This document shows positions 14,784-29,588 of a stretch of DNA of 36,777 nt, in pieces (the stretch's first letter is position 1; each line of letters begins with the position of its first letter). The notes below the pieces were generated by a model that saw only the letters and a list, made by a program, of their open reading frames with translations, was not told the origin of the DNA and made no database searches. The stretch covers positions 1-36,777 of the forward strand of contig JADLBY010000179.1 in NCBI GenBank assembly GCA_020847445.1, in the 5' to 3' direction. The position numbers were made by a program, and so were the translations under genes. The DNA is from Sphingomonadaceae bacterium (lineage in GTDB: Bacteria; Pseudomonadota; Alphaproteobacteria; Sphingomonadales; Sphingomonadaceae).

Positions 14784-15757
14784 TGCGGTGGCTGTGGCTG
14801 TTGCTTGCACTGCTTGTCAGTGCACCGGCGGCGGCCGATGAGCTGCGTCCCGGCTATCTGGAATTGACGCAGAAATCGGCACATGACTGGACGCTAGTGT
14901 GGAAATCACCGATGCGCGGCGGGGTTACACCCAATACCCGTCCGCTATTGCCAGACGGCTGCCGGGAGAATGGCGATGCGCGTCGCGAGCGGATGCCCGC
15001 CGCGCTGATAACCACCGTTCAGGTGCGATGCGCGGACGATGTTTCGGGGAAGCGCATCGGACTCGACGCTTTCTCCGCCGCGCAAACCGATGTGCTGGTC
15101 CGTGTCGCACCGCTGAACCGCCCGGTTCAGGTGGTGCGCTTGACGGCCGCGCAGCCGACGGCGGAAATTCGCGCCCGTCCCGATCGCTGGCAGGTTGCGC
15201 GAACCTATTTCGTCACCGGTGTGGAGCATATCCTGTTCGGTTATGATCATCTGCTGTTTGTCGTGTCGCTGGTGCTGTTGCTTTCCGGTTTCTGGACCAT
15301 CGTCAGGGCGGTCACGGCATTTACCGTTGCCCATTCGCTGACGCTGATCGGAACGACATTGGGCCTGCTGGGCCTTCCGCAACGGCCGGTGGAGAGCGTC
15401 ATCGCACTGTCGATCATGTTTCTGGCGGTTGAAATCGTGAAGAAACAGCCCGGCCAGCCGCGCCTTTCCGAACGCGTGCCCTGGGTCGTGGCTTTCGGCT
15501 TCGGGTTGCTGCACGGCTTTGGCTTTGCCGGTGCCCTCAACGAAATCGGCCTGCCTGAGAGCGACGTGCCAACGGCATTGCTGACGTTCAATCTCGGCGT
15601 CGAAGCAGGCCAGATTGTCATCGTCGCGATTACCGCAGCCCTGGTCTGGCTGTTGGGCCGGGCTTCGCAGCCGCTGCTCGCACGCGGCATCCGCTGGGCC
15701 GCCTATGGCATCGGCACGGTGTCGGCCTTCTGGTTTATCGAGCGCAGCTTCGCATGA
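14783..15757 (+). CDS. HupE/UreJ-like multi-spanning membrane protein
   Basis: This protein has the HupE/UreJ_2 architecture. It has a signal peptide (about 1-18, ending AAADELR), a periplasmic domain of about 110 residues, then six or so hydrophobic helices from about residue 140. Conserved polar motifs GVEHILFGYDHLLFV, VAHSLTLI and GLLHGFGFAGAL put several histidines and an aspartate in or near the membrane. This recalls the metal-ligand helices of HupE nickel permeases. Metal transport is an inference; no nickel enzyme is near. The 324-aa product uses ATG 14783 inside the upstream stop; GTG 14780 is an alternative. The family often sits next to a PpiC-type gene. Confidence 0.8.
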   Translation: MRWLWLLLALLVSAPAAADELRPGYLELTQKSAHDWTLVWKSPMRGGVTPNTRPLLPDGCRENGDARRERMPAALITTVQVRCADDVSGKRIGLDAFSAAQTDVLVRVAPLNRPVQVVRLTAAQPTAEIRARPDRWQVARTYFVTGVEHILFGYDHLLFVVSLVLLLSGFWTIVRAVTAFTVAHSLTLIGTTLGLLGLPQRPVESVIALSIMFLAVEIVKKQPGQPRLSERVPWVVAFGFGLLHGFGFAGALNEIGLPESDVPTALLTFNLGVEAGQIVIVAITAALVWLLGRASQPLLARGIRWAAYGIGTVSAFWFIERSFA

Positions 15758-15769
15758 TCTGATGGTGGC

Positions 15770-16807
15770 TTATGGCACCAGCACCATCTTCAACGCGCCC
15801 GCTTCACGCCGGTCGAACATGTCATAGGCCTCGGCGCCTTTGCTCAAGGGCAGGTGGTGGCTGATATAGCGTTCGGGCTTCAGCCGCCCCGATTGCACCA
15901 GCGGGAACAATGCCGGCAAGTCCTCCGGAACCGAACAGGTGCCGACGCGGAAGGTCAGCCCTCCGGCAAAGGCGCGCTCGAGCGGAAAGGCAAAGCGGCG
16001 CGACTGCTGGACGCCGATGACCGAGACGGTGCCCCGCGCCCGTACGCAGCGGAGCGCGAAATCGACGGTGGCGTCGCTGCCGACGACCTCGACCGCGCAA
16101 TCGAGCTTGCGGCCCCTGCTGTCGTCCTTGATCCGCTCCATCGCCTCGTCGGGATGCAGCGCCATCGCACCCACGGCTTCGGCAAGGTCGCGCCGTTCGG
16201 ATACCGGATCGATCGCGTAAACGACATGCGCGCCCATCACAAAGGCGGCTTCGACGGTCATCAATCCGATAGGGCCCAGGCCAATGACGGCGACGCTGCT
16301 GCCGGGGCGGATATCTGCGTTGCGCGCGCCGAACCAGGCGGTCGCCATCGCGTCGGTCATCATCAATGCCTGATCTTCACTGATTCCTTCAGGGATTTTC
16401 ACGGCATTCATGTCGGCGGCGGGGACGCGGAAGGCTTCGGCCTGCACGCCCTGAAGACGTGCCGAAAGGCCATAGCAACCACTGCCCCCATTCTCGCACG
16501 TGTTGACCACGCCAGACAGGCAGGACCGGCAGGCACCGCAGCCGACCGCAGCGGGCATCATCACCCTGTCGCCAACCTTCACCCGCGTCACCGCCCGGCC
16601 AATCTCGACCACTTCGCCTACGGCTTCATGGCCGACACAGAAGCCGGTATCGTCCGAAAAGCCATGACCGTGATAGATATGCAGGTCGCTGCCGCAAATC
16701 GAACAGGCGGTCATCCGGACAATGGCATCGCGGTCGGATTCGAGTTTCGGATCGTCCATGCTGTCATGCCGGATATCGCGTTCGCCGAAATAGCGCAGGG
16801 CCTTCAT
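15770..16807 (-). CDS. Zinc-dependent alcohol dehydrogenase (threonine dehydrogenase/sorbitol type MDR)
   Basis: This is an NAD(P)-dependent medium-chain dehydrogenase; the substrate is unknown. The 345-aa product has catalytic-zinc ligands C38, H60 and E61 (CSICGSDLHIYHGHG, GHEAVGEV), structural-zinc cysteines C90, C93, C96 and C104, and the nucleotide motif GLGPIG. The first ATG at the true N-terminus is 16807 (MKALRYFGERDIR). The frame is open upstream through the neighbouring gene without similarity. It is the last gene of the seven-gene minus-strand operon, starting in a 4-bp overlap (16804-16807) with the amidohydrolase stop. In this setting it would oxidise a hydroxyl group on the pathway substrate or product, by inference only. 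Confidence 0.9.
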   Translation of the reverse strand: MKALRYFGERDIRHDSMDDPKLESDRDAIVRMTACSICGSDLHIYHGHGFSDDTGFCVGHEAVGEVVEIGRAVTRVKVGDRVMMPAAVGCGACRSCLSGVVNTCENGGSGCYGLSARLQGVQAEAFRVPAADMNAVKIPEGISEDQALMMTDAMATAWFGARNADIRPGSSVAVIGLGPIGLMTVEAAFVMGAHVVYAIDPVSERRDLAEAVGAMALHPDEAMERIKDDSRGRKLDCAVEVVGSDATVDFALRCVRARGTVSVIGVQQSRRFAFPLERAFAGGLTFRVGTCSVPEDLPALFPLVQSGRLKPERYISHHLPLSKGAEAYDMFDRREAGALKMVLVP

Positions 16808-17847
16808 GCCAATCCTTCCAGTCGATAGAAACGGGCAGCAGTGCCGGCAAACAGATCTGCCTTTTCGTCCGCCGGCGCACCGGCAGCGATCCGTTTGAAC
16901 GCATTCCACAGCACCGGATATTCGGCACCAAAGCGATCCACGGGAAAGTTGCTTTCGAACATGCAGCGGCTGGCCCCGAACAGTTCGATACAGCATTCGA
17001 TATAGGGCTTCCATGTGGCCGCCAGCGTTTCGGAGGAGGGCCGGTCGTTCGGCCCCATGCCTTCAAATCCGGGGAAGGGCATGCCCAGACCGCCAAGTTT
17101 GACAAAGACATTGGGCAATTCGGCAAGGCGCGCCATGCTGGCCTTCCAGCCTGCGAAACGCTCGTCGCGCGTCCCCGCATAGCGGCCGATCCCGACCGGG
17201 GTGCCGACATGGTCGATCACCATCTGCACATCGGGAAATGCGCGGGCGAGATCGACGGTTTCGGGCAATTGCGGTTCAACCACCCAGATATCGAGCGACA
17301 GCTTGCGCGCGGCGAAATGCCTCAGCGCCGCGCGCACCTGTGGCGAGGCGCACATATGCGCCGTGGAATGAACCAGCGGCCCCAGCACCGAGCCGTCATC
17401 GTCATGCGCCATCATGTGGCGGATACCGCGAAAACGCCCGCCGCCCGCCGCCAGGTGCGCATCGAGGATGGCGGCAACCGCATCGCCAAGCCCCAGATCG
17501 GCATGGCCGACTATCCCGGCGCAGGCACGGGTCGCGCCATAGATGCCGCTCGCCGCCATGGCAGCAACGCCGTTGACGAACTCGGTTTCGCCAACCGGCT
17601 GCATCGCTTCGGGGCCATCGGCCCGGTAAAATGCGCCGCACTGGACATAGACGGTGCCGATCACATTATGCCCGCTGCCCGTGTCTGCCAGCAATTCGTC
17701 GAGCAGGTAGCGCGGGGACTGTCGCAGGATCGCCTCGAACGGATGAGAGATTTCGGCGGGCAGAAATGGCAGCCGCGAGCGCCAGTCCCACAAATGATGG
17801 TGCGGATCGATGATCGGCAGTTCCGGTTCGATTATCGCTTCTTTCAT
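16804..17847 (-). CDS. Amidohydrolase family 2 (TIM-barrel, lactonase-like) protein
   Basis: This is a metal-dependent or metal-free TIM-barrel hydrolase of the Amidohydro_2 group, which includes 2-pyrone-4,6-dicarboxylate lactonase and L-fuconolactonase-like enzymes. The 347-aa product begins with the metal/active-site motif IIDPHHHLWDW (11-21), then GTVYVQCGAFY, RGIRHMM, VIDHVGTPVG and the late FESNFPVDRFG motif whose aspartate is catalytic in this group. ATG 17847 lies in a 4-bp overlap with the acyl-CoA synthetase stop; a GGAGCGGAG-like ribosome-binding site precedes it. Opening of a lactone to a hydroxy acid would fit the operon, but the substrate cannot be read from sequence. Confidence 0.87.
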   Translation of the reverse strand: MKEAIIEPELPIIDPHHHLWDWRSRLPFLPAEISHPFEAILRQSPRYLLDELLADTGSGHNVIGTVYVQCGAFYRADGPEAMQPVGETEFVNGVAAMAASGIYGATRACAGIVGHADLGLGDAVAAILDAHLAAGGGRFRGIRHMMAHDDDGSVLGPLVHSTAHMCASPQVRAALRHFAARKLSLDIWVVEPQLPETVDLARAFPDVQMVIDHVGTPVGIGRYAGTRDERFAGWKASMARLAELPNVFVKLGGLGMPFPGFEGMGPNDRPSSETLAATWKPYIECCIELFGASRCMFESNFPVDRFGAEYPVLWNAFKRIAAGAPADEKADLFAGTAARFYRLEGLA

Positions 17848-19391
17848 ATTCTCCGCTCCCGTCCTTGCCAAAAGGGTTCGCGCAGTTTGCGCTTGAATAT
17901 CTTGCCCGAATCCTCGCGCGGCAGGCTGTCGGCAAAATCGATCCGGCGGGGCACCTTATATCCGGTCAGCACGCGCTTGAGCTCGGCCTGCAATCCATCG
18001 GCGGTCAGCGACGCACCGGGCATCGGCTGCACCACCGCCATCACGCTTTCGCCAAATTCTTCGTCGGGAATGCCGAACACCGCGCAGTCGGCAACGCCGG
18101 GCAGTTTGTGCAACTCGGCTTCGATCTCGGCGGGATAGATGTTCGCCCCGCCCGAAATGATCATGTCGTTGATCCGGTCGCACAGATAGAGAAAGCCGTC
18201 CTGGTCGAAATAGCCCATGTCGCCCGGGGTGATCAGGCCATATTTCTCCATCGAGGCGCGCTTTTCGGGCGCGTTCTGATAGGTGAAGTTGGTGCCGTGG
18301 CGGCCTTTTCCAATCACCTCGCCGATGGTGCCGGGTGGCACGTCCTTGCCCTCGGGATCGACGACGCGCAAGGTCACACCCGGCTGGACGCGCCCGACCG
18401 ATCCGGGATGCTTCAGCCATTCCGCAGACGACAGTCCGGTGACATTGCCCATTTCGGTCGATCCATAATATTCCCAGATCACCGGCCCCCACCATGCGAT
18501 CCTCGCGCGCTTGACCGGTGGCGGGCAGGGCGCGGCGGCATGGGTGACATATTCGAGGCTGGACAGGTCATATTTGCGCTTCACCGCATCGGGCAGGCGC
18601 AGCAGCCGGTTGAACATGATCGGCACCATGTTGAGATGCGTGATCCGTTCCTTTTCGATAAGCGCCAGCAATGCCTCGGCGTCAAAACGCGGGCAGATGA
18701 TCACTTTGGCACCGACGCGGATCGAGAAGGCGGAATGGGCGTTGGGGGCGCTGTGATAGACCGGCCCGATAACGGCGGTCGTCACCGTCGCAGGGTCGCG
18801 TTTTCCTTCCAGAATATCGGTATAGCCATAGGACCAGCCGAGCATGGTGTTGACCGCTTCGGCCTGTTCAGGCGTGAAGGCTGCGCGCCGGACGCCCTTT
18901 GGCCTGCCGGTGGTGCCCGATGTGTAGATGATCGTGCTGGGGGCCATTTCCGCCTCGCCCGCAAAGGGGGGCGCTGCGTCCAGCAGTTCGTCCCAGCGCG
19001 GCAGTCCGTTCGGCGGAGGAGGCTCGGAAAGCCCGTAAGCCGCGCGGATTTCAGACGGCGTATCGACGATGACGACCTGGACGTCTGCCGGGATTGCCTG
19101 CTTGATCGGGGGGTAAAGGTCGGCATGGACCAGCAACAGCTTCACCGCGCTGTCGGTCAGCAGGTAATTCGCCTCGTCGGGTGTATAGTGCCAGTTGACC
19201 GGCACCGGATAGATGCCCAGCATCCCTGCGCCGAAGGCGGCCTCGAAATAGGCGATGTCGTTGCGCAGATAGAGGGCGATGCCGTCGCCGGCTTCGATGC
19301 CGAAATTCCGGATGACCGTTGCGGCACACCGCGCCCGCGCATCGAATTCCGCCGTCGTCAGTATCCGGGTGCCGCTTTTGATCCAGCCCAT
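17844..19391 (-). CDS. Acyl-CoA synthetase (AMP-forming)
   Basis: The enzyme activates a carboxylic acid to its CoA thioester through an acyl-adenylate. The 515-aa product has the P-loop IIYTSGTTGRPKG, the adenylate motif EYYGSTE, the hinge region GDMGYFDQDGFLYLCDRIND with MIISGGANIYPAEIE, and the C-terminal lysine in REDSGKIFKRKLRE. Start ATG 19391 is preceded by GGGAGAGAAGG. The frame is open another 60 codons upstream into the SDR gene, without similarity. It belongs to the seven-gene operon, 20 bp after the SDR stop and overlapping the amidohydrolase start by 4 bp. Its place matches lvaE in the Pseudomonas levulinate operon. Confidence 0.94.
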   Translation of the reverse strand: MGWIKSGTRILTTAEFDARARCAATVIRNFGIEAGDGIALYLRNDIAYFEAAFGAGMLGIYPVPVNWHYTPDEANYLLTDSAVKLLLVHADLYPPIKQAIPADVQVVIVDTPSEIRAAYGLSEPPPPNGLPRWDELLDAAPPFAGEAEMAPSTIIYTSGTTGRPKGVRRAAFTPEQAEAVNTMLGWSYGYTDILEGKRDPATVTTAVIGPVYHSAPNAHSAFSIRVGAKVIICPRFDAEALLALIEKERITHLNMVPIMFNRLLRLPDAVKRKYDLSSLEYVTHAAAPCPPPVKRARIAWWGPVIWEYYGSTEMGNVTGLSSAEWLKHPGSVGRVQPGVTLRVVDPEGKDVPPGTIGEVIGKGRHGTNFTYQNAPEKRASMEKYGLITPGDMGYFDQDGFLYLCDRINDMIISGGANIYPAEIEAELHKLPGVADCAVFGIPDEEFGESVMAVVQPMPGASLTADGLQAELKRVLTGYKVPRRIDFADSLPREDSGKIFKRKLREPFWQGRERRI

Positions 19392-19411
19392 CCTTCTCTC
19401 CCTCGCGAACT

Positions 19412-20191
19412 TCAGTAGATGGTATAGCCCCCGTCGATGACGATCGTATCGCCGGTGTGGTTGCGCGATCCGCGGCTGGCGAGATAGACCGCGATTGCCG
19501 CGAAATCCGATCCGTCGAGCCAGTCGCCGGTTGGCACACGGCTGATCACCGCCTCGTTGAACTTGTCCCATTCCTGCAGGCCTGCGGTCATGCCCGAACG
19601 GGTCCAGCCGGGAAGCACGCTGTTCACGGTGATGCCATAACGGGCAAGTTCGACCGCCATCGCCCGCGCCATGGCAACCACCGCGCCCTTGCTCGCGCCA
19701 TAATGTTCGTTGCGCGCCGCACCGTGGATCGCGGAAGTGGAGGAGATGGCAACCAGCGAGCCGCCGCCATCGCCCGCCTTATGCCGCTCGATCATGTGGC
19801 GGGCCGCTTCGCGCAGGGTGAAAAGCACGCCATGGATGTTCACATCCTCGATCTTGCGGAAATCCTCGACGCTGATGTCGAACAGGCTTTTGCGCGAGAT
19901 CGAGATGCCGGCATTGGCAATCGCCTGATCGAGCCTGCCAAATTCGGCGATGATCGCCTCGATGCCCTGTGCGACCGCCGCCTCGTCCGAAACGTCGACC
20001 TTTGCCGCGCGCACCTCGCCGCCATGCGCGCGCAGCTTTTCGGCCGCCTCTGCGTTGCGGTCGGCATTGGTGCCCCAGATGACCACCGTCGCCCCGTGCG
20101 CGGCAAGTCCGTCCGCCATGCCAAGGCCGATGCCGTTATTGCCGCCGGTGACCAGTGCTACCTTGCCGGTCAGATCGAAAAGCGATGCCAT
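19412..20191 (-). CDS. Short-chain dehydrogenase/reductase (SDR), copy 1
   Basis: This is an NAD(P)-dependent oxidoreductase of the classical SDR family; the substrate is unknown. The 259-aa product has TGGNNGIGLG (15-24) for cofactor binding, NAG, the catalytic serine in SSTSAIHG, and YGASKG with the Tyr-Lys pair. It ends with the family-typical TGDTIVIDGGYTIY. It starts 10 bp after the acyl-CoA dehydrogenase stop and ends 20 bp before the synthetase. Its position between the ACAD-type gene and the synthetase corresponds to lvaD, the levulinyl-CoA reductase of Pseudomonas putida, but SDR substrate assignment from position alone is weak. Confidence 0.93.
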   Translation of the reverse strand: MASLFDLTGKVALVTGGNNGIGLGMADGLAAHGATVVIWGTNADRNAEAAEKLRAHGGEVRAAKVDVSDEAAVAQGIEAIIAEFGRLDQAIANAGISISRKSLFDISVEDFRKIEDVNIHGVLFTLREAARHMIERHKAGDGGGSLVAISSTSAIHGAARNEHYGASKGAVVAMARAMAVELARYGITVNSVLPGWTRSGMTAGLQEWDKFNEAVISRVPTGDWLDGSDFAAIAVYLASRGSRNHTGDTIVIDGGYTIY

Positions 20192-20201
20192 ATGCCCCTC
20201 C

Positions 20202-21428
20202 TCAACGCTCGTTCATCGCGACATATTCCTTGATCTTCGACTTGCCGAGCTGGCTCATATGCACCTCGTCCGGGCCGTCGGCGATGCGCACAAAGCGGTT
20301 CAGCGTGAAGAAGCGCGCAATCGGCGTATCGTCCGAAACGCCCATCCCGCCATGCACCTGGATGGCGCGGTCGCACACCGTCTGCGCCATTTGCGGCGCA
20401 ACGACCTTGATCGCGGCGATCAGGTCTTTCGCTACCTTGTTGCCATAGCGATCCATCGCGTCGGCGGCCTTCAGCGTCAGCAGCCGCGACATTTCGATCT
20501 CGCAAAAGCTCTTCGCCACATCCTGCCGGATCGACGACTGGTCGGCCAGTTTCCTGCCGAAGGCGACACGGCTGTCGGCCCGGCGCGCCATGATCTCCAG
20601 CGCGCGCTGGGCCTGCCCGATCGAGCGCATGCAGTGATGGATGCGGCCCGGCCCGAGCCGACCCTGGGCAATCTCGAACCCGCGACCCTCGCCGAGGATC
20701 AGATTGCCCCTGGGCACACGCACATTGTCAAAGCGAAGCTCGCATTCGCCGCCCGGCGAATTGTGGCTGCCAAATACAGTCAGGTGGCGCACTATGGTGA
20801 TGCCCGGGGTGTCAGGTTCGACCAGGATTTGCGAATGCTGGGCGTGGCGGGGGGCGTTGAAATCGGTCTTGCCCATCACGATCCAGATATCGCAGCGCGG
20901 GTGCATCGCGTTCGAAATCCACCATTTGCGACCGTTGATGACATATTCGTCGCCATCGGGTGTGATCGACAGCTCCAAATTGGTTGCGTCGGAAGAGGCG
21001 ACCTGCGGCTCGGTCATCACATAGGCTGACCGGATTTCGCCGTTGAGCAACGGTTTCAGCCACTTTTCCTGCTGTTCGGGCGAACCATATTTGGCCAGCA
21101 CTTCCATATTGCCCGTGTCAGGGGCGGAACAGTTGAAGACCTGGCTAGACCAGGGCACGCGACCGAGCAGTTCGGCAATCGGGGCATATTCCAGATTGGT
21201 CAGGCCGGGGGAGAAGGCCCCATATTCATGCGGCAGGAATAGGTTCCACAGGTCGAGAGCTTTTGCCTTCGCCTTCAGCTCCTCCATCTTCGGCCATTCC
21301 TTCCAGATATTGGCCGGATCGGTCACGAAATCATGATAGTCTTCCTCATTCGGATAGACATGCTCGTCCATGAAGGCCTGTATCCGGGAAAGCAGCCCCT
21401 TGACCTTGTCGCTATGTTCGAAATCCAT
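20202..21428 (-). CDS. ACAD10/ACAD11-type acyl-CoA dehydrogenase
   Basis: This is a FAD-dependent acyl-CoA dehydrogenase-fold protein of 408 aa. The motif [12 protein letters not shown] (139-150), ASSDATN-type rather than GAGSD, and [10 protein letters not shown] (381-390) place it with the ACAD10/ACAD11 and LvaC group. At the position of the usual C-terminal catalytic glutamate (YEG) it reads ADG (D384). In this group the enzyme can act on a 4-phosphorylated acyl-CoA made by an APH-like kinase; in animals the two domains are fused, and in the lva operon they are separate genes. Here the kinase gene is two genes upstream in the same operon. A conventional acyl-CoA dehydrogenase role is the alternative. 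Confidence 0.92.
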
Positions 21429-21439
21429 GGAAAATCCTT

Positions 21440-22177
21440 TCAGAGGGAAAGCCCGCCATCCACGATCAGCGTATGACCGGTGACGTAGGAGGCGAGCGGG
21501 GAGGCAAGGAAAATGGCCGCACCTGCCATGTCGGCGGGCAGGCCCATGCGGCGTTGCGGGATATTGGCGAGCGCCCCGGCCAGCCGTTCGGGGCTTTGCG
21601 TGGTCACCTTGGTCAGCTTGGTATCGACCAGACCGGGGGCAAGGCCGTTGACGCGGATTCCTTCCGGCCCCCAGGCCTGGCCCAGCGTCTTGGTCAGGCT
21701 GATCGCGCCTGCCTTGGATGCGGCATAGGCCGGGTTGCCGATATTGGCCTTCAGCCCCGAAATCGAACTGACGATGATGACGCTGCCCCGGCTTTCGAGC
21801 AGCTGCGGTTTGAACTTGCGCGCGATGTGCATCAGGCTGTCCAGATTGACGGCCATCACCCGATCCCAGCCGGGCCGTTCAAACTCGCCGCGCTTGTAAA
21901 CGACGGTGCCCTGGCACAGCACGAGAACGTCGAGCCTATCGAAGGGCGCGGGTGCGGCCTCGATCGCATCGGGATCTCCGGCATCGACGCAGCTATATCC
22001 CAGCCCGGCCAGATCGGAACCATCGGCGGGGTCATAGTCCGCCGCGTTCGCACGCGTGCCCCACACATGCACCCGGGCTCCGCGGTCGGCAAAACCATGG
22101 GCAATGCCGTTGCCAATTCCGCTCGATCCGCCGACAACCAATATGTTCCGGCCGGTGAAATCGGTGTCGTTGGCCAT
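21440..22177 (-). CDS. Short-chain dehydrogenase/reductase (SDR), copy 2
   Basis: This is a second classical SDR in the operon, 245 aa, with [10 protein letters not shown] (15-24), the NAG position changed to CQG (LVLCQGTVV), the catalytic SSISG, and YAASKAG, ending [13 protein letters not shown]. The changed NAG motif sets it apart from copy 1 and may alter the cofactor pocket, though conservative variants occur. It starts 12 bp after the kinase gene and ends 11 bp before the acyl-CoA dehydrogenase, the slot filled by the small lvaB gene in Pseudomonas putida. The substrate is unknown; oxidation of a 3-hydroxyacyl-CoA or reduction of a 4-keto group would both fit. Confidence 0.93.
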
Positions 22178-22189
22178 GGAAAATTCCTT

Positions 22190-23218
22190 TCAGTTGATGC
22201 GCCGCAGCGCGCGTTCGAAAAGGTGGATGGTGTGCGCGTGCAACCGGTCGCCGGTTTCGCGCGGCGCCTTGCCCGCACAGGCACGCGCATGCGTGCCTTC
22301 GAGGATGATGCCCAGCTTGTAACAGGCAAGCACGGCATACCAGTCAAAATCGGCCAGATCGCGCCCTGTCAGCGCCGCATAATGCGCCACCAGTTCGTCC
22401 GGTGTGGCAAAGCTGTCCCACGGTGCGACCGCGACGTCGGTCGCGTGCGGACTGCCATTTTCAGGCCAGGTCGCGACGAGCCAGCCCAGATCGAGCAGCG
22501 GATCGCCCAGCGTGCACAATTCCCAGTCGACCACCGCCGCCAATTCGCCGCTGTCGTAGCGGAACAGCACATTGGCGAAATGGAAGTCGCCATGGATGAT
22601 TCCCGGCTGGAACCCGGCGGGCCTATGCGCGTCGAGCCATTGCGCGACCTGTTCGACCCCCGGAATGGCATCCGGGCCGGTCCAGCCCGGCATTTCCGAA
22701 TAGCTGGCCAGTTGCGACGCCCAGCGCCCGACCTGCCGGTCGATCCAGTTGTCGAGCCTGCCAAAGCCTTCGAGCCCGACCGCACGATAATCGACGCGGC
22801 TGAGCGCGGCTATGGCCTCGACCATGGCCAGCCCCATGCGGCGACGGATGGCTGCATCGCCCGCATGCAGCGCGGGCAGCCCCTGCGCCGCATTGAAGCC
22901 TTCGATCGGCTCCATCAGATAGAAGGCCGCCTCGATGACCTTGTCGTCGGGGCAGGCGGCAATCAGTTCCGGATGCGGAACGTCGCTGCCTTTGAGCGCG
23001 GCCAGAATATGGGCTTCGCGGCGCATGGTTTCATTCGAATTGGCCCGCAGGACGGGTGGCGGGCGGCGCAGGATATAGCTGCGGCCAGCACGGCTGAATC
23101 GCAGCAATATATTCTGTGTGCCGCCCGCCAAAGTGGTGGCATCGGCGATGGGGCCCTCTCCTAGCCCCTGCCGGTCCATCCACTGCTGAAGCGCGTCGAG
23201 ATCGACTCCGTCGATCAT
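22190..23218 (-). CDS. APH-family phosphotransferase, probable hydroxyacyl-CoA kinase
   Basis: This is a kinase of the aminoglycoside phosphotransferase/choline kinase fold. The 342-aa product has a Gly-rich loop (LAGGTQNILLRF), the lysine region replaced by YILRRPP, the catalytic loop HGDFHFAN (H209, D211, N216) and the metal-binding DWE (D231, E233). LRRPP after the loop is typical of the ACAD10/ACAD11 N-terminal domain and its bacterial relatives, not of antibiotic kinases. The gene is first in the seven-gene operon. ATG 23218 follows AGAGG closely. By family and context it probably phosphorylates a hydroxyacyl-CoA, by analogy with LvaA; drug resistance is unlikely. Confidence 0.9.
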   Translation of the reverse strand: MIDGVDLDALQQWMDRQGLGEGPIADATTLAGGTQNILLRFSRAGRSYILRRPPPVLRANSNETMRREAHILAALKGSDVPHPELIAACPDDKVIEAAFYLMEPIEGFNAAQGLPALHAGDAAIRRRMGLAMVEAIAALSRVDYRAVGLEGFGRLDNWIDRQVGRWASQLASYSEMPGWTGPDAIPGVEQVAQWLDAHRPAGFQPGIIHGDFHFANVLFRYDSGELAAVVDWELCTLGDPLLDLGWLVATWPENGSPHATDVAVAPWDSFATPDELVAHYAALTGRDLADFDWYAVLACYKLGIILEGTHARACAGKAPRETGDRLHAHTIHLFERALRRIN

Positions 23219-23241
23219 CCTCTCACGAATCCCCTTTTCAT

Positions 23242-23257
23242 TTATCCAAATGGATAA
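23242..23257. promoter_or_regulatory. Palindromic operator for the divergent TetR regulator
   Basis: A perfect palindrome with arms TTATCCA and TGGATAA around AA lies in the 79-bp gap between the kinase and tetR genes. It overlaps the -10 element and start region of the operon promoter, so binding there would block operon transcription. This is the usual arrangement for a TetR-family repressor. Confidence 0.72.
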
Positions 23258-23282
23258 TGCGGTTGACGTAGGCGGGAGTCAA
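23254..23282 (-). promoter_or_regulatory. Promoter of the seven-gene catabolic operon
   Basis: On the minus strand TTGACT (23277-23282) and CATTAT (23254-23259) are separated by exactly 17 bp, a strong sigma-70 match. The start site would fall near 23247 inside the operator, giving a leader of about 29 nt. Confidence 0.7.
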
Positions 23283-23291
23283 GCCTAGCCT
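23263..23291 (+). promoter_or_regulatory. Promoter of the divergent tetR gene
   Basis: TTGACG (23263-23268) and TAGCCT (23286-23291) are separated by 17 bp. The start site falls about 7 nt later, at or next to A of the tetR ATG (23298), with no Shine-Dalgarno between. This implies a leaderless mRNA. The promoter overlaps the divergent operon promoter, and the operator lies just upstream of its -35. Confidence 0.6.
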
Positions 23292-23297
23292 GAATAT

Positions 23298-23948
23298 ATG
23301 GCGAGTACGGCCCCGAAGGCGCGCAGCGAGGCTGCAGAACATCTGAAGGCGGTCGCGCTGCGCCTGTTCGCTGAACGCGGGATTGACGGCGTCACGGTGC
23401 GTCAGATTGCGGAAGCCGCCGGGCAGAAAAATCATGCGGTAGTCGGCTATTATTTCGGATCGAAAGAAGCGCTGGTGCGCGAACTGATTGTGGATGGCGC
23501 GCGCGCGATTGACCTGCGGCGCAACGCGTGGCTCGATCGTTGCGAGGCAAAAGGTGGGCCGCACAGCGTGGCCGAAGTGATCAGCGCGATGATCGAAACC
23601 TCGCTCGATCCGGATGCAGCCCCCGGCGATGAAAGCTTCAACCGCTTTTTCACCCTGCTGGGCCTGTCGCACCGTGCCTTTTTCATGGAGGCGCTCGAGG
23701 ATCGATGGAATACGGGCTACCAGCGCTGTCTGGCCCATCTGCGCCGGTTGATGCCCGACATGGCGGCGGCAAAGAAGAATGAGCGTTTCGTCTTCCTCGG
23801 TGCCACGCTCGGCGCGGTCCTGTCGGCGCGCGAAAGCGAACTGGCCGACAGGTCACGGCCGCATCATATGTGGCAATCTGCCGGTACGCTGAAACATGCG
23901 GCGCAGGTCATCGCTGCCATGATCGAGGCGCCGCCAACCACAGCCTGA
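23298..23948 (+). CDS. TetR/AcrR family transcriptional regulator
   Basis: This is a predicted ligand-responsive repressor of the divergent catabolic operon and possibly of itself. The 216-aa product has the TetR DNA-binding domain in residues 12-60, with the helix-turn-helix VTVRQIAEAAGQKNHAVVGY (33-52) followed by YFGSKEALV. The C-terminal ligand-binding half (SFNRFFTLLGLSHRAFF and following) is not assignable to a substrate class, but acyl-CoA or fatty acid effectors are common for regulators of ACAD operons. No ribosome-binding site precedes ATG 23298. The isovaleryl-CoA dehydrogenase gene follows on the same strand after 116 bp. Confidence 0.92.
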   Translation: MASTAPKARSEAAEHLKAVALRLFAERGIDGVTVRQIAEAAGQKNHAVVGYYFGSKEALVRELIVDGARAIDLRRNAWLDRCEAKGGPHSVAEVISAMIETSLDPDAAPGDESFNRFFTLLGLSHRAFFMEALEDRWNTGYQRCLAHLRRLMPDMAAAKKNERFVFLGATLGAVLSARESELADRSRPHHMWQSAGTLKHAAQVIAAMIEAPPTTA

Positions 23949-24064: not shown

Positions 24065-25225
24065 ATGGCCGATTTCGATTTCGCACTTGGCGAAAATGCG
24101 GAGATGATCCGCGAGACAACCTACCGCTTTTCGACCGACAAGATCGCTCCGCTAGCCGCCAAAATCGACGCAGAGGACTGGTTCCCGCGCGATGAATTGT
24201 GGACCGCCATGGGCGACCTCGGCCTGCACGGGATCACTGTCGCCGAAGAAGATGGCGGGCTAGGCCTGGGATATCTGGAACATGTGGTCGCGGTGGAGGA
24301 GGTCAGCCGCGCCTCGGCCTCGATCGGGCTGTCTTATGGTGCGCATTCGAACCTGTGCGTCAACCAGATCCGCCGCTGGGCGAATCCCGAACAGAAGGCG
24401 AAATATCTGCCAAAGCTGGTCTCGGGCGAACATGTCGGCAGTCTGGCCATGTCGGAGGCAGGCGCGGGGTCGGATGTCGTTTCGATGAAGCTGAAGGCCG
24501 ACAATGTTCAGGGTGGCTTCGTGCTGAATGGCACCAAATACTGGATCACCAATGCGCCCTATGCGGACACGCTTGTCGTCTATGCAAAAACCGCACCCGA
24601 AGCCGGTTCGCGCGGGATAACCGCCTTCCTCATCGAAAAGGATTTCCAGGGCTTCAGCATCGGCCAGAAGATCGAAAAGGTTGGCATGCGGGGTTCGCCT
24701 ACGGCCGAGCTGGTGTTCGACGATTGCTTCGTTCCCGAAGAAAATGTGATGGGGCCGCTGCATGGCGGGGTGGGTGTGCTGATGAGCGGGCTCGACTATG
24801 AACGGGTGGTGCTCGCCGGGCTCCAACTGGGCGTGATGCAGGCCTGTCTCGACGTGGTGCTGCCCTACGTTCGCGACCGCAAGCAGTTTGGCAAGGCCAT
24901 TGGCAGCTTTCAGCTGATGCAGGCCAAGGTGGCCGACATGTATGTCGCGCTCAATGCGGCGCGCAGCTATGTCTATAATGTGGCGCGGGCCTGTGATGCC
25001 GGCCGGACCACGCGTTTCGATGCAGCGGGCGCGATCCTTCTCGCCAGCGAAAGCGCGGTCAAGGTGGCCGGCGAAGCGATTCAGGCGCTGGGGGGCGCTG
25101 GCTATACCAGGGATTGGCCGGTCGAACGCTATTGGCGCGATGCGAAACTGCTCGATATCGGCGCCGGAACAAACGAAATCCGCCGCATGCTGATCGGGCG
25201 GGAACTGATCGGGGCGGCAGGATAG
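24065..25225 (+). CDS. ivd: Isovaleryl-CoA dehydrogenase
   Basis: The enzyme oxidises isovaleryl-CoA to 3-methylcrotonyl-CoA in leucine catabolism, passing electrons to ETF. The 386-aa product has the acyl-CoA dehydrogenase signatures AMSEAGAGSDVVSM and YGAHSNLCVNQ, and the catalytic glutamate at 246 in SGLDYERVVLAG. That is the shifted position special to isovaleryl-CoA dehydrogenases, while the usual C-terminal site reads IGAGTNEI with no glutamate. This makes the substrate call strong. AAAGGAG lies 7-13 nt before ATG 24065. It heads the leucine operon, followed by an NTF2-like gene and the methylcrotonyl-CoA carboxylase genes. Confidence 0.95.
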   Translation: MADFDFALGENAEMIRETTYRFSTDKIAPLAAKIDAEDWFPRDELWTAMGDLGLHGITVAEEDGGLGLGYLEHVVAVEEVSRASASIGLSYGAHSNLCVNQIRRWANPEQKAKYLPKLVSGEHVGSLAMSEAGAGSDVVSMKLKADNVQGGFVLNGTKYWITNAPYADTLVVYAKTAPEAGSRGITAFLIEKDFQGFSIGQKIEKVGMRGSPTAELVFDDCFVPEENVMGPLHGGVGVLMSGLDYERVVLAGLQLGVMQACLDVVLPYVRDRKQFGKAIGSFQLMQAKVADMYVALNAARSYVYNVARACDAGRTTRFDAAGAILLASESAVKVAGEAIQALGGAGYTRDWPVERYWRDAKLLDIGAGTNEIRRMLIGRELIGAAG

Positions 25226-25254
25226 GGCCGATGCCTGCAACCGGGGAGAAGACG

Positions 25255-25662
25255 ATGCACGAGCACGATACGCCCGAAGGCCGAAAGGCCGTGTTCCGTG
25301 CGCTGATCGATTGCTACGCCCGCGCCGATGTCGAGGCGATGGCGGCGCTGATTGCGCCCGATTACCGCGGCCACACCTCAGCCGGGCCGCGCGACTGGGC
25401 CGAGTTCCGGCAGTCAATCCTCAACTTCCACGCCCTGTTCGACTATGCGCCCGATTCCTTCGTGGTCGAGGACCAGTTCGTGGATGGCGAGAAGGTCGCG
25501 ACGCGTATGACCTGCACGGTGCGCAGCAAGGAAACTGCAGAGCCGATGACGATGATCGGCATCAACCTGGCGGTGATCCGCAGCGGACAGATTGTCGAGG
25601 AATGGAACACCTGGGAGATGGTCGCCGCACCCGAGAGCCTGTCGGTGCAGGGGGCCACGTGA
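25255..25662 (+). CDS. SnoaL/NTF2-like small protein
   Basis: This is a 135-aa protein of the NTF2/SnoaL fold, function unknown; such proteins are ester cyclases, isomerases or binding domains. It has the opening helix AVFRALIDCYARADVEAMAALIAPDYRGH, the middle RQSILNFHALFDYAPDSFVVED and the last strand VIRSGQIVEEWNTWEMV, standard for the family. I chose ATG 25255 because GGGGAGAAG precedes it; ATG 25231 is in frame, 8 codons earlier. It starts 29 bp after ivd and ends 25 bp before the carboxylase beta subunit, so it is co-transcribed with leucine catabolism. The role there is not known to me. Confidence 0.82.
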   Translation: MHEHDTPEGRKAVFRALIDCYARADVEAMAALIAPDYRGHTSAGPRDWAEFRQSILNFHALFDYAPDSFVVEDQFVDGEKVATRMTCTVRSKETAEPMTMIGINLAVIRSGQIVEEWNTWEMVAAPESLSVQGAT

Positions 25663-25687
25663 TCCGAATGACGGAGAATAACTGTAA

Positions 25688-27286
25688 ATGACCGCCCCCA
25701 CCCTTGCCACCAAGCTCGACCGCGAGAGCCCTGAGGCCAAGAACCGGTATGCACACAACCGCGCGCTTGCGGAGGAACTGCGCGCCCGGGTGGCGCAGGC
25801 GGCGCGTGGCGGGTCTGAACAGCATCGCGAACGGCATGTCGCGCGCGGCAAACTCCTCCCGCGCGATCGTGTCGAGCGGCTGCTCGATCCCGGCGCGCCC
25901 TTTCTCGAAATCGGCCAGCTCGCGGCGAACGGCATGTATGAAGGCGATGTGCATGGTGCGTCGCTGATCACCGGCATTGGCCGGGTGTCGGGTCGCGAGT
26001 GCATGATCGTGTGCAACGATGCGACGGTGAAGGGCGGAACCTATTATCCGATGACGGTGAAAAAGCATCTGCGCGCGCAGGAGATTGCGCTCGAAAACCG
26101 GCTGCCGTGCATCTATCTGGTCGACAGTGGCGGCGCGAACCTGCCGCATCAGGCCGAGGTGTTCCCAGACCGGGAGCATTTCGGGCGGATATTCTTCAAC
26201 CAGGCGAATATGTCGGCGCGCGCGATCCCGCAGATCGCCTGTGTGATGGGCAGTTGCACCGCAGGCGGCGCCTATGTTCCCGCCATGTCCGACGAGACGG
26301 TGATCGTGCGCGAGCAGGGCACGATCTTCCTCGCCGGACCGCCGCTGGTAAAGGCGGCAACGGGTGAGGAAATCAGCGCCGAGGATCTGGGCGGCGGCGA
26401 TCTGCACGCCAGGAAATCGGGCGTGGTCGACCATCTGGCGGATGATGACGAACATGCGCTGACGATCGTGCGCGATATCGTCAGCCATCTCGGCACAAAA
26501 ATAGGGACAGTCCCTATTTTTCAAGAACCGCGCCCGCCCAAATATGATCCGCAGGAACTTTACGGCATCATCCCCGAAGATGTCCGCGCGCCCTATGACG
26601 TGCATGAGGTGATAGCGCGGCTGGTCGACGCATCCGAATTTCATGAATTCAAGACGCTCTATGGCAGCACGCTGGTCTGCGGCTTTGCGCATATCTGGGG
26701 AATGCCGGTCGCGATCCTCGCCAACAATGGCGTGCTGTTCAGCGAGAGCGCGCAAAAGGGCGCGCATTTCATAGAGCTGGCGCAGCAGCGCAAAATCCCT
26801 TTGCTGTTTCTGCAGAATATCAGCGGGTTCATGGTCGGCGGCAAATATGAGGCGGAAGGGATCGCCAAGCATGGTGCAAAGCTCGTCACCGCCGTCGCCA
26901 CCGCGACCGTACCCAAGGTGACGGTGCTGATCGGCGGCAGCTTCGGCGCGGGCAATTATGGCATGTGCGGGCGCGCCTACAGCCCCCGCTTCCTGTTCAG
27001 CTGGCCCAATAGCCGGATCAGCGTGATGGGCGGTGAGCAGGCAGCAAGCGTGCTGGCGACCGTCCACCGCGACGCCGACAAATGGACGCCCGAGGAGGCC
27101 GAAGCCTTCAAGGCGCCGATCCGCCAGAAATATGAGGATGAGGGCAATCCCTATCACGCGACGGCGAGGCTGTGGGACGATGGCATCATCGACCCCGCGC
27201 AGACGCGCGACGTGCTGGGGCTCGCCTTTGCGGCGACGCTGAACGCGCCGGTAGAGGAGCATGGGTTCGGCGTGTTCAGGATGTGA
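25688..27286 (+). CDS. mccB: Methylcrotonyl-CoA carboxylase carboxyltransferase (beta) subunit
   Basis: The subunit transfers carboxyl from biotin to 3-methylcrotonyl-CoA, giving 3-methylglutaconyl-CoA in leucine degradation. The 532-aa product has the N-terminal domain motif [20 protein letters not shown] and [16 protein letters not shown], and the C-terminal domain motif [20 protein letters not shown] and [16 protein letters not shown], all typical of MccB rather than propionyl-CoA carboxylase. The interdomain linker contains an in-frame palindrome (26497-26521) encoding KIGTVPIF, unlike other MccB proteins I recall. GGAG lies 13 nt before ATG 25688. Its stop overlaps the start of the next small gene. 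Confidence 0.96.
26497..26521. repeat. Perfect 25-bp palindrome inside mccB
   Basis: Arms AAAAATAGGGAC (26497-26508) and GTCCCTATTTTT (26510-26521) flank a single central A. It is far more AT-rich than the surrounding gene and is translated as KIGTVPIF in the linker between the two carboxyltransferase domains. It looks like a dispersed REP-type palindrome that has been tolerated in frame. Confidence 0.9.
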
Positions 27287-27735
27287 TGGCGATGGGACTG
27301 TTTGGCAAACTATTCTCAAAATCGCCCGGCCCGGCAACGATGACGCTCGAAGGCGAAGGCCTCTCGCCACTGAGCAATCCGACTGAAGATGATGTCCGTC
27401 AGGCGGTATTGGGGCTTGCACGATCAGGCACATCATTCGTGTCGTTGGCAGACGAGACCGGGAACTATGTACAGGTCGCCGGTAGCCGTCCGTGGTGCGT
27501 GCTCGAGCGGAGACAGGTCGCGCCTCCGCTTCACGAGCGCGCTTTTCAAGAAACGCCGTCTCCAAAATATGCAGATGGGGCGAAGATCAGCACCGGAGCT
27601 GGAGACATTATAATGAAGTCGGACGAGTGGTTCCTATTGAAGGACGCCGCTGATGTGTTCGTTGCTTTTCTAAATCGGCAAGCGCCACCCGTGCACATTC
27701 AGTGGCGCTCCTTGAACGAGATGCTAGGTCTATGA
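27286..27735 (+). CDS. Unrecognised 149-aa protein between the MCC subunits
   Basis: I do not recognise the function. The product starts [12 protein letters not shown], continues with PTEDDVRQAVLGLARSGTSF, then a strand-rich part ETGNYVQVAGSRPWCVLERR, and ends with DEWFLLKDAADVFVAFL. It is soluble, with no signal or membrane segment. The layout vaguely recalls small immunity-protein-like domains; this is a low-confidence impression. Both junctions are coupled: the ATG (27286) shares the mccB stop (TGATG) and its stop overlaps the mccA start (ATGA). Codon use differs from the neighbours, with CTA, TTG, ATA, AGA and AAA more frequent, hinting at a separate origin. ATG 27292 is an alternative start. 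Confidence 0.75.
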   Translation: MAMGLFGKLFSKSPGPATMTLEGEGLSPLSNPTEDDVRQAVLGLARSGTSFVSLADETGNYVQVAGSRPWCVLERRQVAPPLHERAFQETPSPKYADGAKISTGAGDIIMKSDEWFLLKDAADVFVAFLNRQAPPVHIQWRSLNEMLGL

Positions 27736-29588
27736 TCCAATCCCTCCTCATCGCCAATCGCGGCGAAATCGCCTGCCGGATCATCCGCACCGCACGGGCC
27801 ATGGGTATCCGCACCATTGCGGTCTATTCGGACGCTGATGCCAACGCGCTGCATGTGCAAATGGCCGACGATGCCGTGCATATCGGTCCCTCTGCGGCAC
27901 GTGAAAGCTATCTGGTGGGTGACAAGATCATCGACATTGCCCGCGCCACCGGTGCGGAGGCGATCCATCCGGGCTATGGGTTCCTTTCCGAAAATGCCGA
28001 GTTTGCGCAGCGTGTGATCAGCGCGGGGCTGGTCTGGGTCGGGCCCAATCCGGCGAGTATTACCGCGATGGGCCTGAAAGATGCGGCGAAGCAGTTGATG
28101 CAGCAGGCAGGCGTGCCGGTGACGCCGGGCTATATGGGCAGCAATCAGGATCCGGGGTTCCTCTCGATCCAGGCCGATGGCATTGGCTATCCGGTGCTGA
28201 TCAAGGCGGTTGCAGGCGGCGGTGGCAAGGGGATGCGGCTGGTCGAACGGCCAGAGCAGTTCGCCGATGCCCTTGCCAGTTGCAGGCGTGAGGCGGCGGC
28301 CAGTTTTGGCAACGATCATGTGCTGATCGAAAAATATATCCAGCGCCCGCGCCATATCGAGGTGCAGGTGTTTGGCGACAGCCACGGCCAGATCGTCCAC
28401 CTGTTCGAACGCGATTGCTCGCTCCAGCGCCGCCACCAGAAGGTGATCGAGGAAGCCCCCGCGCCGGGGATGGATGCCGAAACGCGCGCGGCATTGTGCG
28501 CGGCCGCGGTGCGCGCGGCCAAGGCGGTCGATTATGTCGGCGCGGGCACGATCGAATTCATCGCCGATGCCTCCTCAGGGCTGCGCGCCGACCGCATCTG
28601 GTTCATGGAAATGAACACAAGGCTACAGGTCGAACATCCGGTGACCGAGGCGATTACCGGGGTCGATCTGGTCGAATGGCAGTTGCGCATCGCGAGCGGC
28701 GAACGCCTGCCGCTTCACCAGGATCAGCTTGGCATCAACGGCTGGGCAATGGAGGCGCGGCTCTATGCCGAGGATCCCGAAAAGGGCTTCCTCCCCTCCA
28801 TAGGCAGGCTTGAGCATCTGGTGCTCCCCGACAATGTGCGCGTCGATACCGGGGTGGAGCAGGGGGGCGAAGTCTCCCCCTATTACGACCCGATGATCGC
28901 CAAGCTGATCGCGCATGGCGCGTTCCGCGATGACGCCATTGCGAGGCTGGAGGCTGGCATCGACGATACCGAAGTCTGGCCGGTAAAGACCAATGCGGGC
29001 TTTCTTGGCAATCTGCTGCGCCATCCCGAATTCCTTTCGGGCGATGTCGATACCGGCCTGATCGGGCGCGATGGCGACGAACTGGTCCATCCGATCGAGG
29101 CCGAAGTCGACGAGCTGACCGAGGTTGCCGTGCTGCTCGCGGCCAGCCCGGGCGAAGGGCCGTGGAGCGGTGCGCTCGGCTTCCGCATGAACGCCGCGCC
29201 CCATGCAGTCGTCCGGCTGCGCGACGATGCGGGCACGGTGTATCAGGTGCCGCTCGCCGAGGTGAATGCCGCCGAACCTGCGCGCGACGTGCTTGCTTTC
29301 ACCGGTGGTTTTGCCCGCCGCTATACGCTCGACCGGCACGAAGGCGGCGGCCATCATGGTGCGCATGATGGCGACATAGTCTCGCCGATGCCGGGGCGCA
29401 TCATCGCCGTCGAGGTGACGGCGGGCCAGACGGTGGCCAAAGGGCAGAAACTGCTCACCCTCGAAGCGATGAAGATGGAGCACACACTGACCGCCCCGTT
29501 TGACGGGGTGGTCGCGGAACTGAACGCCCAGGCGGGAGCGCAGGTGCAGGTGGAGGCGCTGCTGGCACGCATTGAAAGCGCGGGCTGA
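27732..29588 (+). CDS. mccA: Methylcrotonyl-CoA carboxylase biotin-carboxylase (alpha) subunit
   Basis: The subunit carries out ATP-dependent carboxylation of its own biotin, supplying mccB in leucine catabolism. The 618-aa product has the biotin-carboxylase start LLIANRGEIACRIIRTA, ATP-grasp loop GGGGKGM (about 163-169), catalytic FMEMNTRLQVEHPVTE, and a C-terminal biotinyl domain with EAMKMEHT (biotinylated lysine near 581). The length suits a three-domain alpha subunit. ATG 27732 lies in a 4-bp overlap with the preceding small gene; the in-frame extension to 27702 lies inside that gene. Methylglutaconyl-CoA hydratase and HMG-CoA lyase genes, needed to finish the pathway, do not follow. Confidence 0.95.
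   Translation: MIQSLLIANRGEIACRIIRTARAMGIRTIAVYSDADANALHVQMADDAVHIGPSAARESYLVGDKIIDIARATGAEAIHPGYGFLSENAEFAQRVISAGLVWVGPNPASITAMGLKDAAKQLMQQAGVPVTPGYMGSNQDPGFLSIQADGIGYPVLIKAVAGGGGKGMRLVERPEQFADALASCRREAAASFGNDHVLIEKYIQRPRHIEVQVFGDSHGQIVHLFERDCSLQRRHQKVIEEAPAPGMDAETRAALCAAAVRAAKAVDYVGAGTIEFIADASSGLRADRIWFMEMNTRLQVEHPVTEAITGVDLVEWQLRIASGERLPLHQDQLGINGWAMEARLYAEDPEKGFLPSIGRLEHLVLPDNVRVDTGVEQGGEVSPYYDPMIAKLIAHGAFRDDAIARLEAGIDDTEVWPVKTNAGFLGNLLRHPEFLSGDVDTGLIGRDGDELVHPIEAEVDELTEVAVLLAASPGEGPWSGALGFRMNAAPHAVVRLRDDAGTVYQVPLAEVNAAEPARDVLAFTGGFARRYTLDRHEGGGHHGAHDGDIVSPMPGRIIAVEVTAGQTVAKGQKLLTLEAMKMEHTLTAPFDGVVAELNAQAGAQVQVEALLARIESAG

Follow-up and report, generated by a model that had tools for sequence, protein, structure and literature searches.

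The window analysed here, 36,777 nucleotides from a Sphingomonadaceae bacterium, carries a seven-gene operon that centres on a kinase (KIN), a short-chain dehydrogenase (SDR1) and an acyl-CoA dehydrogenase (ACAD). All seven genes lie on the minus strand and run from 23218 to 15770 in the order KIN, SDR1, ACAD, SDR2 (a second short-chain dehydrogenase), ACS (an acyl-CoA synthetase), AMH (an Amidohydro_2 protein) and ADH (a zinc-type alcohol dehydrogenase). They are separated by 12, 11, 10 and 20 bp and then by two 4-bp overlaps (Table 1). An initial annotation, made from the letters of the sequence, had described the seven genes, their gaps and their motifs; gene coordinates and Pfam matches confirmed this description, and the ASSDATN and ADGPDEVH motifs were found in ACAD as given. 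A divergent TetR gene and a palindrome beside it were absent from that annotation. For ACS, AMH and ADH a mechanical list of open reading frames gave longer N-termini; the starts adopted here reproduce the lengths of the proteins in a relative of the operon, L028 (515, 347 and 345 aa). The nearest contigs found for the window belong to two Sphingorhabdus metagenome-assembled genomes (MAGs), with 84% DNA identity over 8,183 and 4,564 bp, respectively.

Table 1. Genes and regulatory features of the operon, in window coordinates.
Feature	Position	Strand	Description
KIN	22190-23218	-	APH-fold small-molecule kinase, 342 aa, proposed 4-hydroxyacyl-CoA kinase; Pfam APH 141 bits
SDR1	21440-22177	-	Short-chain dehydrogenase, 245 aa; Pfam adh_short_C2; accompanies KIN
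ACAD	20202-21428	-	ACAD10/11-type flavoenzyme, 408 aa, proposed 4-phosphoacyl-CoA phosphate-eliminating enzyme; Pfam Acyl-CoA_dh domains
SDR2	19412-20191	-	Second short-chain dehydrogenase, 259 aa; Pfam adh_short_C2; lineage-specific in this operon
ACS	17844-19391	-	Acyl-CoA synthetase, PRK12406 subfamily, 515 aa; Pfam AMP-binding
AMH	16804-17847	-	Amidohydro_2 protein, 347 aa; Pfam 127 bits
ADH	15770-16807	-	Zinc-type medium-chain alcohol dehydrogenase, 345 aa; Pfam ADH_N/ADH_zinc_N; final operon gene
TetR-family regulator	23298-23948	+	Divergent from KIN; Pfam TetR_N
Proposed TetR operator	23242-23257		Palindrome TTATCCAAATGGATAA, between KIN and the divergent TetR gene
Promoter-like site of operon	23254-23282	-	TTGACT, 17 bp, CATTAT; -10 overlaps palindrome

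By its sequence ACAD is an ACAD10/11-type enzyme, with the exception of one proline discussed below. Its best match of solved structure was mouse ACAD11 (421 bits; 51% identity over 391 columns), followed by the related 4hr3 (406 bits), and the next solved acyl-CoA dehydrogenase reached only 148 bits. In a tree of 78 rows (77 different; LvaC and ACAD10 not included), ACAD fell inside a clade of 46 rows with 100/100 support that contains mouse ACAD11 and stands apart from ordinary acyl-CoA dehydrogenases. In ACAD11 the 4-phosphate is held by R626, H634 and R637, while R631 serves to position the substrate and D753 acts as catalytic base; when R626, H634 or R637 is changed, the dehydrogenase step is ablated and the phospho intermediate accumulates (extract of PMC12440821). 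These five positions align with R257, H265, R268, R262 and D384 of the window protein, D384 lying within ADGPDEVH and placing Asp instead of Glu at the catalytic position. The numbering is corrected for the PDB chain of ACAD11, which runs one below that of the paper. Since ACAD falls in the ACAD10/11 group with all five ACAD11 residues, both the earlier assignment of the enzyme to this type and the accompanying proposal of a kinase step followed by phosphate elimination are judged sound.

The five residues were kept in most relatives with a kinase neighbour. Among full-length ACAD rows (1,050 bp or longer) lying no more than 3 kb from a kinase of the KIN clade described below, 35 of 37 had all five; a single Pseudomonas sequence accounts for three of the 37. 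The two exceptions are ordinary acyl-CoA dehydrogenases, one of them the isovaleryl-CoA-dehydrogenase-like neighbour of the operon at 24065. Beside other kinases the proportion was 16/18. The kinase-adjacent proteins form several subgroups with variant motifs (HCMR, HAMR, AHCMRW) and nonetheless keep the five residues. One distinct subgroup, paired with KIN-like kinases in six loci (L068, L088, L109, L111, L067, L090), has RLGGGR and HAMR replacing RLGPGR and HCMR, with the phosphate-handling residues all kept.

The AlphaFold model of KIN has a confident APH fold (pLDDT 93.7). The kinase residues listed in the initial annotation (H209, D211, N216, D231 and E233) are present and were invariant in 103/103 aligned kinase rows, as was R161, the equivalent of ACAD11 R176. 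D211 and N216 correspond to the APH3-type catalytic residues D220 and N225 of ACAD11. In a kinase tree of 103 rows (98 different), KIN belongs to a clade of 70 rows with 100/100 support and a stem of 1.36; sampling favours this clade, the loci having been fetched with KIN as the query. The PDB folds closest to the model were 3dxp and then 9fsg, the 25-hydroxysteroid kinase of Sterolibacterium denitrificans (21% identity in the fold alignment). Another contig of the same genome, C130, has a kinase-ACAD pair too, of the kind that resembles ACAD11.

Conservation of the gene neighbourhood was surveyed in 63 contig loci encoding a KIN relative of at least 45% identity. An ACAD-type gene was found within 3 kb in 29/63 and an SDR1 orthologue beside KIN in 20/63. 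Nineteen of the 20 SDR1-bearing loci also had ACAD, and the contig of the twentieth ends 513 bp after the kinase; thus KIN, SDR1 and ACAD are neighbours in 19/19 such loci whose contig continues, two Pseudomonas loci having the order SDR1-ACAD-KIN. Thirteen relatives of the operon were readable (L028, L030-L036, L044, L079, L219, L220 and L221), L032 being from Novosphingobium olei TW-4; L029, which has SDR2, and L037 are truncated at contig ends and stand outside these counts. KIN-SDR1-ACAD was present in 13/13, zinc ADH and TetR each in 12/13, AMH in 5/13 (three in line and two beside TetR across the promoter) and SDR2 in 1/13. The operon is patchily distributed: a KIN match at E <= 1e-90 was obtained in 6/147 genomes of the order, its own included, and in none of three other genomes of the same genus listed. 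Literature searches for such an operon, or for strains carrying it, returned nothing usable.

The region between KIN and the divergent TetR gene contains a 16-bp palindrome, TTATCCANNTGGATAA, which overlies the -10 box (CATTAT) of a conserved promoter-like site. When up to two mismatches were allowed, it had a single match in the window against 0.01 expected. It was exact in the window and in 12/12 operon-bearing relatives, where the 17-bp spacing was unchanged, and TTGAC and CATTAT stood at equal spacing in 12/12 relatives checked. Two promoter-like sites were found in 15600-23400, with 1.8 expected by chance, so that the weight of this site rests on its conservation. Two further genomes, picked by kinase identity, also carry the palindrome, bringing the total to 15 of the 18 loci examined. 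It was absent from L221, in which no TetR orthologue was found either, from the Sulfitobacter locus L110 and from the Caulobacter locus L109; the TetR relatives of the last two are 55% and 43% identical, respectively.

A scan of 219 sequences found the palindrome nowhere except at this promoter. In nine whole genomes, with one mismatch allowed, there was exactly one site in eight and a second, imperfect site in one, while a reversed control pattern gave no site. Because the palindrome occurs once per genome in 8/9 genomes, the regulator seems to serve this operon alone, and palindrome and TetR together form a putative private repressor switch. The TetR protein weakly resembles PsrA (36.5 bits over aa 9-183); a match to RefZ (37.1 bits) covers the DNA-binding part only, and the best solved match was 2fbq (34 bits). 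PsrA senses fatty acids, which would fit an acyl ligand. In L044 (5931-9911), with the same clusters in L030, two genes follow AMH on its own strand on the TetR side of the promoter, one for an iron-type alcohol dehydrogenase and one that is nitronate-monooxygenase-like, which might be a second operon controlled by this operator. Among the flanking genes of the relatives (20 proteins), this was the one possible link; the rest looked unrelated.

SDR1 has Ser137, Tyr151 and Lys155, and CQG at aa 88-90, where the usual short-chain dehydrogenase motif is NAG. A [CSA]QG motif was found in all 26 aligned SDR1 rows, some of them identical. At 60% identity or more, SDR2 was found as a neighbour of KIN in L028 and L029 alone; Sulfitobacter L110 has a relative of at least 45% identity at another place in its cluster. 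ACS passes the NCBIfam model NF009071 (PRK12406) with 708.5 bits against a cut-off of 701, and none of the other six operon proteins reached an NCBIfam cut-off among the matches listed (for the two short-chain dehydrogenases, the best 25 of 227 and of 229). The best solved match of ADH was 4cpd (260 bits).

AMH had been described as lactonase-like. It has an Amidohydro_2 domain with an HxH motif (DPHHHLW). Its Asn300 (SNFPVD), an Asn in all six aligned relatives, aligns with the beta-8 Asp in the SDWPV motif of PDB 4dlf, the water-activating residue of Amidohydro_2 lactonases of the 4dlf and fuconolactonase type. AMH matches 4dlf only weakly (49 bits), and it scored 84 bits with the NCBIfam model for L-fucono-1,5-lactonase, the cut-off of which is 400. 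For these three reasons AMH should not yet be called a lactonase and lactone opening is unproven; its occurrence in just five of 13 relatives likewise speaks against the earlier label. An AlphaFold model of AMH from six sequences had a pLDDT of 51.7 and was not used. On a plasmid of Novosphingobium capsulatum (L112, 5193-7453 and 11968-13032), some 4.5 kb separate an AMH relative from an ACAD11-like kinase-ACAD pair.

Taken together, these data suggest that the operon is probably catabolic and channels a carboxylic acid with a gamma-hydroxy (or gamma-keto) group into beta-oxidation through phosphorylation and phosphate elimination. This chemistry on a 4-hydroxyacyl-CoA is the best reading because an ACAD10/11-type enzyme with the five residues adjoins an APH kinase with intact catalytic residues. 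Judging from its position, ACS would make the CoA thioester of the acid; the kinase domain of ACAD11 needs a CoA ester (extract of PMC12440821). SDR1, and probably ADH too, would oxidize an alcohol precursor or convert the 4-oxo and 4-hydroxy forms into each other, giving the configuration that the kinase accepts. KIN would then move phosphate from ATP onto the 4-hydroxyl of the acyl-CoA, and ACAD would take the alpha proton and expel phosphate to yield the 2-enoyl-CoA with no net oxidation; both roles are proposed from homology and residue identity with ACAD11. SDR2 and AMH, again to judge from gene position, may serve accessory steps for particular precursors, and TetR, bound to the palindrome over the -10 box, would repress the operon until an acyl-type ligand releases it.

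The operon resembles mammalian ACAD10 and ACAD11 in that its ACAD lies in the ACAD11 clade with the same five active-site residues and is partnered by an APH3-like kinase that keeps the catalytic residues of the ACAD11 kinase. In contrast to those bifunctional kinase-ACAD proteins, it encodes two separate proteins, with SDR1 and ADH as near-constant companions. Several findings weigh against the proposed function. A proline that widens the active site is conserved in ACAD10/11 (extract of PMC11342911); at this position (human ACAD11 Pro463, the column being placed by a one-residue offset between human and mouse numbering) the window ACAD has Ser, a small departure that leaves it within the ACAD10/11 type. 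The initial annotation had proposed phylogeny as a check on both proteins, and the outcome was divided: ACAD grouped with ACAD11, but KIN did not group with its kinase. Mouse ACAD11 kinase, a long branch in a tree that lacks LvaA, lies outside the KIN clade, as do 3dxp and the kinases of ordinary bacterial kinase-ACAD pairs. KIN shares only 26% identity with the ACAD11 kinase, and the ACAD11 structure was not among the best 50 fold matches of the KIN model. Phosphate-type residues also occur in 13 of 26 ACAD rows without a kinase within 3 kb, for example in Pseudomonas (in two of the 13, L009 and L010, the copy is short and lacks its kinase through truncation), so that the residues alone are no proof of a local kinase partner. 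No ACAD-type gene lay within 3 kb in 34 of the 63 KIN loci, mostly actinobacterial and myxococcal and including some short contigs; the KIN clade as a whole therefore need not act with ACAD. Finally, ACS is missing from three of the 13 relatives (present in 10). ADH is more constant across them than the synthetase.

A bolder reading would make KIN-SDR1-ACAD a distinct three-component dehydroxylation machine and not a variant of the lva pathway. Its kinase clade would be independent of the LvaA/ACAD11 line and suited to hindered, branched or cyclic gamma-hydroxyls; SDR1, with its CQG motif, would be a dedicated stereo-inverting partner giving the kinase the right epimer; and the alcohol-oxidizing module recruited (zinc ADH or a pyrroloquinoline quinone (PQQ) dehydrogenase) would differ between bacteria. 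We regard this extension as doubtful.

The PQQ enzyme comes from a second kind of operon, here called type B (L042, L045, L052, L053, L057 and contig C48 of the same genome, L169), which has the KIN-SDR1-ACAD trio too, 59-72% identical. Type-B operons differ in having another CoA ligase, a PQQ alcohol dehydrogenase instead of zinc ADH (by Pfam in L045 and L169; the same cluster in the others) and divergent FO-synthase and F420:NADP-oxidoreductase genes (by Pfam in L169; the same cluster in L045, L053 and L058), and no TetR orthologue and no palindrome were found in them. The divergence of the C48 operon (L169, 2564-13490) from F420-related genes, likewise in L045, L053 and L058, is an unexpected link to cofactor F420 in sphingomonads. 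Over 8,487 bp C48 is 99.94% identical to a Sphingobium MAG contig (L058), pointing to contamination or a recently shared element. On account of this near-identity and of an assembly rated 6.1% contaminated, its KIN operon was not used as evidence on this organism.

It is unlikely, in our estimate, that KIN acts instead on a free hindered alcohol, such as a terpenoid or steroid side chain, with ACAD handling a separate or later phosphorylated CoA intermediate. The 25-hydroxysteroid kinase 9fsg, second only to 3dxp as a PDB fold match, likewise has the APH fold and activates a hydroxyl so that phosphate can be eliminated; it acts, however, on a free tertiary steroid alcohol, unlike the role proposed for KIN, and the low identity of the two in the fold alignment speaks against this reading. 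The extract of PMC8449060 reports no candidate lyase gene near the steroid kinase gene, its lyase partner being unknown in 2021, and KIN relatives in Nocardia and other genera have no ACAD neighbour, which would suit a kinase of free alcohols. On the other side, KIN keeps the Arg that matches the CoA-contacting R176 of ACAD11, and in the SDR1-bearing branch it adjoins the phosphate-eliminating type of ACAD. Branched or terpenoid substrates would fit the P450 genes in L111 and the methylcrotonyl-CoA-carboxylase-like genes that lie within 10 kb of KIN in 5/67 loci (L074, L080, L086, L108 and L109) and in the window, where leucine/methylcrotonyl-CoA-type genes adjoin the operon at 24065-29588. 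Carboxyltransferase identity is 80-81% in L108 and L109 and 51-52% in three Nonomuraea loci. Such carboxylase-like genes were found in none of the 13 closest relatives; inferring the substrate from them was therefore rejected, and they are a lead for branched substrates but not evidence for this operon.

A levulinate (lva) operon with reshuffled accessory genes is quite unlikely, although the initial annotation had drawn a special tie to that pathway. The enzyme classes of Pseudomonas putida lvaABCDE (kinase, ACAD, short-chain dehydrogenase and CoA ligase) are all represented, and the two central reactions are presumed to be the same. The order kinase-X-ACAD-SDR-synthetase, noted earlier as shared with lva, is true of the window and of L028 but is not conserved across the relatives. 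It depends on SDR2, the lineage-specific gene at the LvaD position; the agreement with lva in gene order is thus local and arises from the placement of SDR2 between ACAD and the synthetase in the Sphingorhabdus lineage. Unlike lva, the operon has SDR1 between kinase and ACAD, a zinc ADH and an optional amidohydrolase (LvaA and LvaC were not directly compared). No lvaB was found: the KIN-SDR1 gap is 12 bp and holds no small gene. The earlier remark that an SDR replaces lvaB does not point to a functional gap, because the extract of PMC6692424 gives a P. citronellolis lva cluster that is also without lvaB, so that absence of the gene is no obstacle, and because Burkholderia orthologues of LvaA and LvaC replaced ACAD10 domains in assays (extract of PMC11342911). 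An lva cluster without lvaB would equally permit a reshuffled levulinate operon here. The kinase, however, belongs to another clade than that of ACAD11, and the gene adjoining the operon is the divergent TetR gene with its own palindrome and not an LvaR-type regulator, LvaR being listed as sigma54-dependent (extract of PMC6692424). Since it lacks lvaB, adjoins another type of regulator and has a kinase that falls outside the clade of the ACAD11 kinase, the operon is, on gene content and phylogeny, not an lva operon.

A search for lva genes covered one Pseudomonas genome among five, then 59 and 249 genomes of the genus (the second set overlapping the first), and nine again at a looser limit. 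Among the matches listed, no lvaABCDE was seen in the 15 Pseudomonas loci read (L165-L168, L174-L176, L181, L182 and L203-L208; gene calls in L206 are poor).

A loose collection of a generic kinase and an ordinary fatty-acid ACAD, with no phosphorylated intermediate, is very improbable: APH kinases and ACADs are common (seven and 27 matches, respectively, in this genome), but this ACAD has phosphate-binding residues that ordinary ones lack, and conservation of the KIN-SDR1-ACAD trio, together with a single operator, extends over different genera.

The enzymes that remove gamma-hydroxyl groups by way of a phosphorylated CoA ester were identified only recently, in 2017 for bacteria (lva) and in 2024-2025 for ACAD10/11. 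What the present operon most likely adds to that picture is a different kinase branch, a companion reductase and a repressor of its own. It points to a phosphate-eliminating ACAD that is served by two or more kinase clades of deep separation; one of these clades has, in Proteobacteria, an almost invariable reductase companion. The private promoter-operator should report the substrate, and a reporter fusion could be screened with lactones, hydroxy acids and terpenoid acids.

Some further observations concern ACAD relatives elsewhere. The window ACAD had a match at E <= 1e-112 in 241 of 249 genomes of the genus Pseudomonas; at the five loci of the common kind that were read (L165, L176, L203, L204 and L207) a LysR-like gene, so named by its look, adjoins it and no kinase is called nearby. 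One internal stop codon was seen in ACAD10/11-type matches at G005:C113:19932-21134 (L121) and G174:C1:59564-60775 and in G228 and G226, some of which may just overrun the gene end. In the plasmid table, vanG resistance is predicted for the ACAD-bearing stretch of Sulfitobacter pontiacus plasmids (H45, H46 and H84), probably a false annotation.

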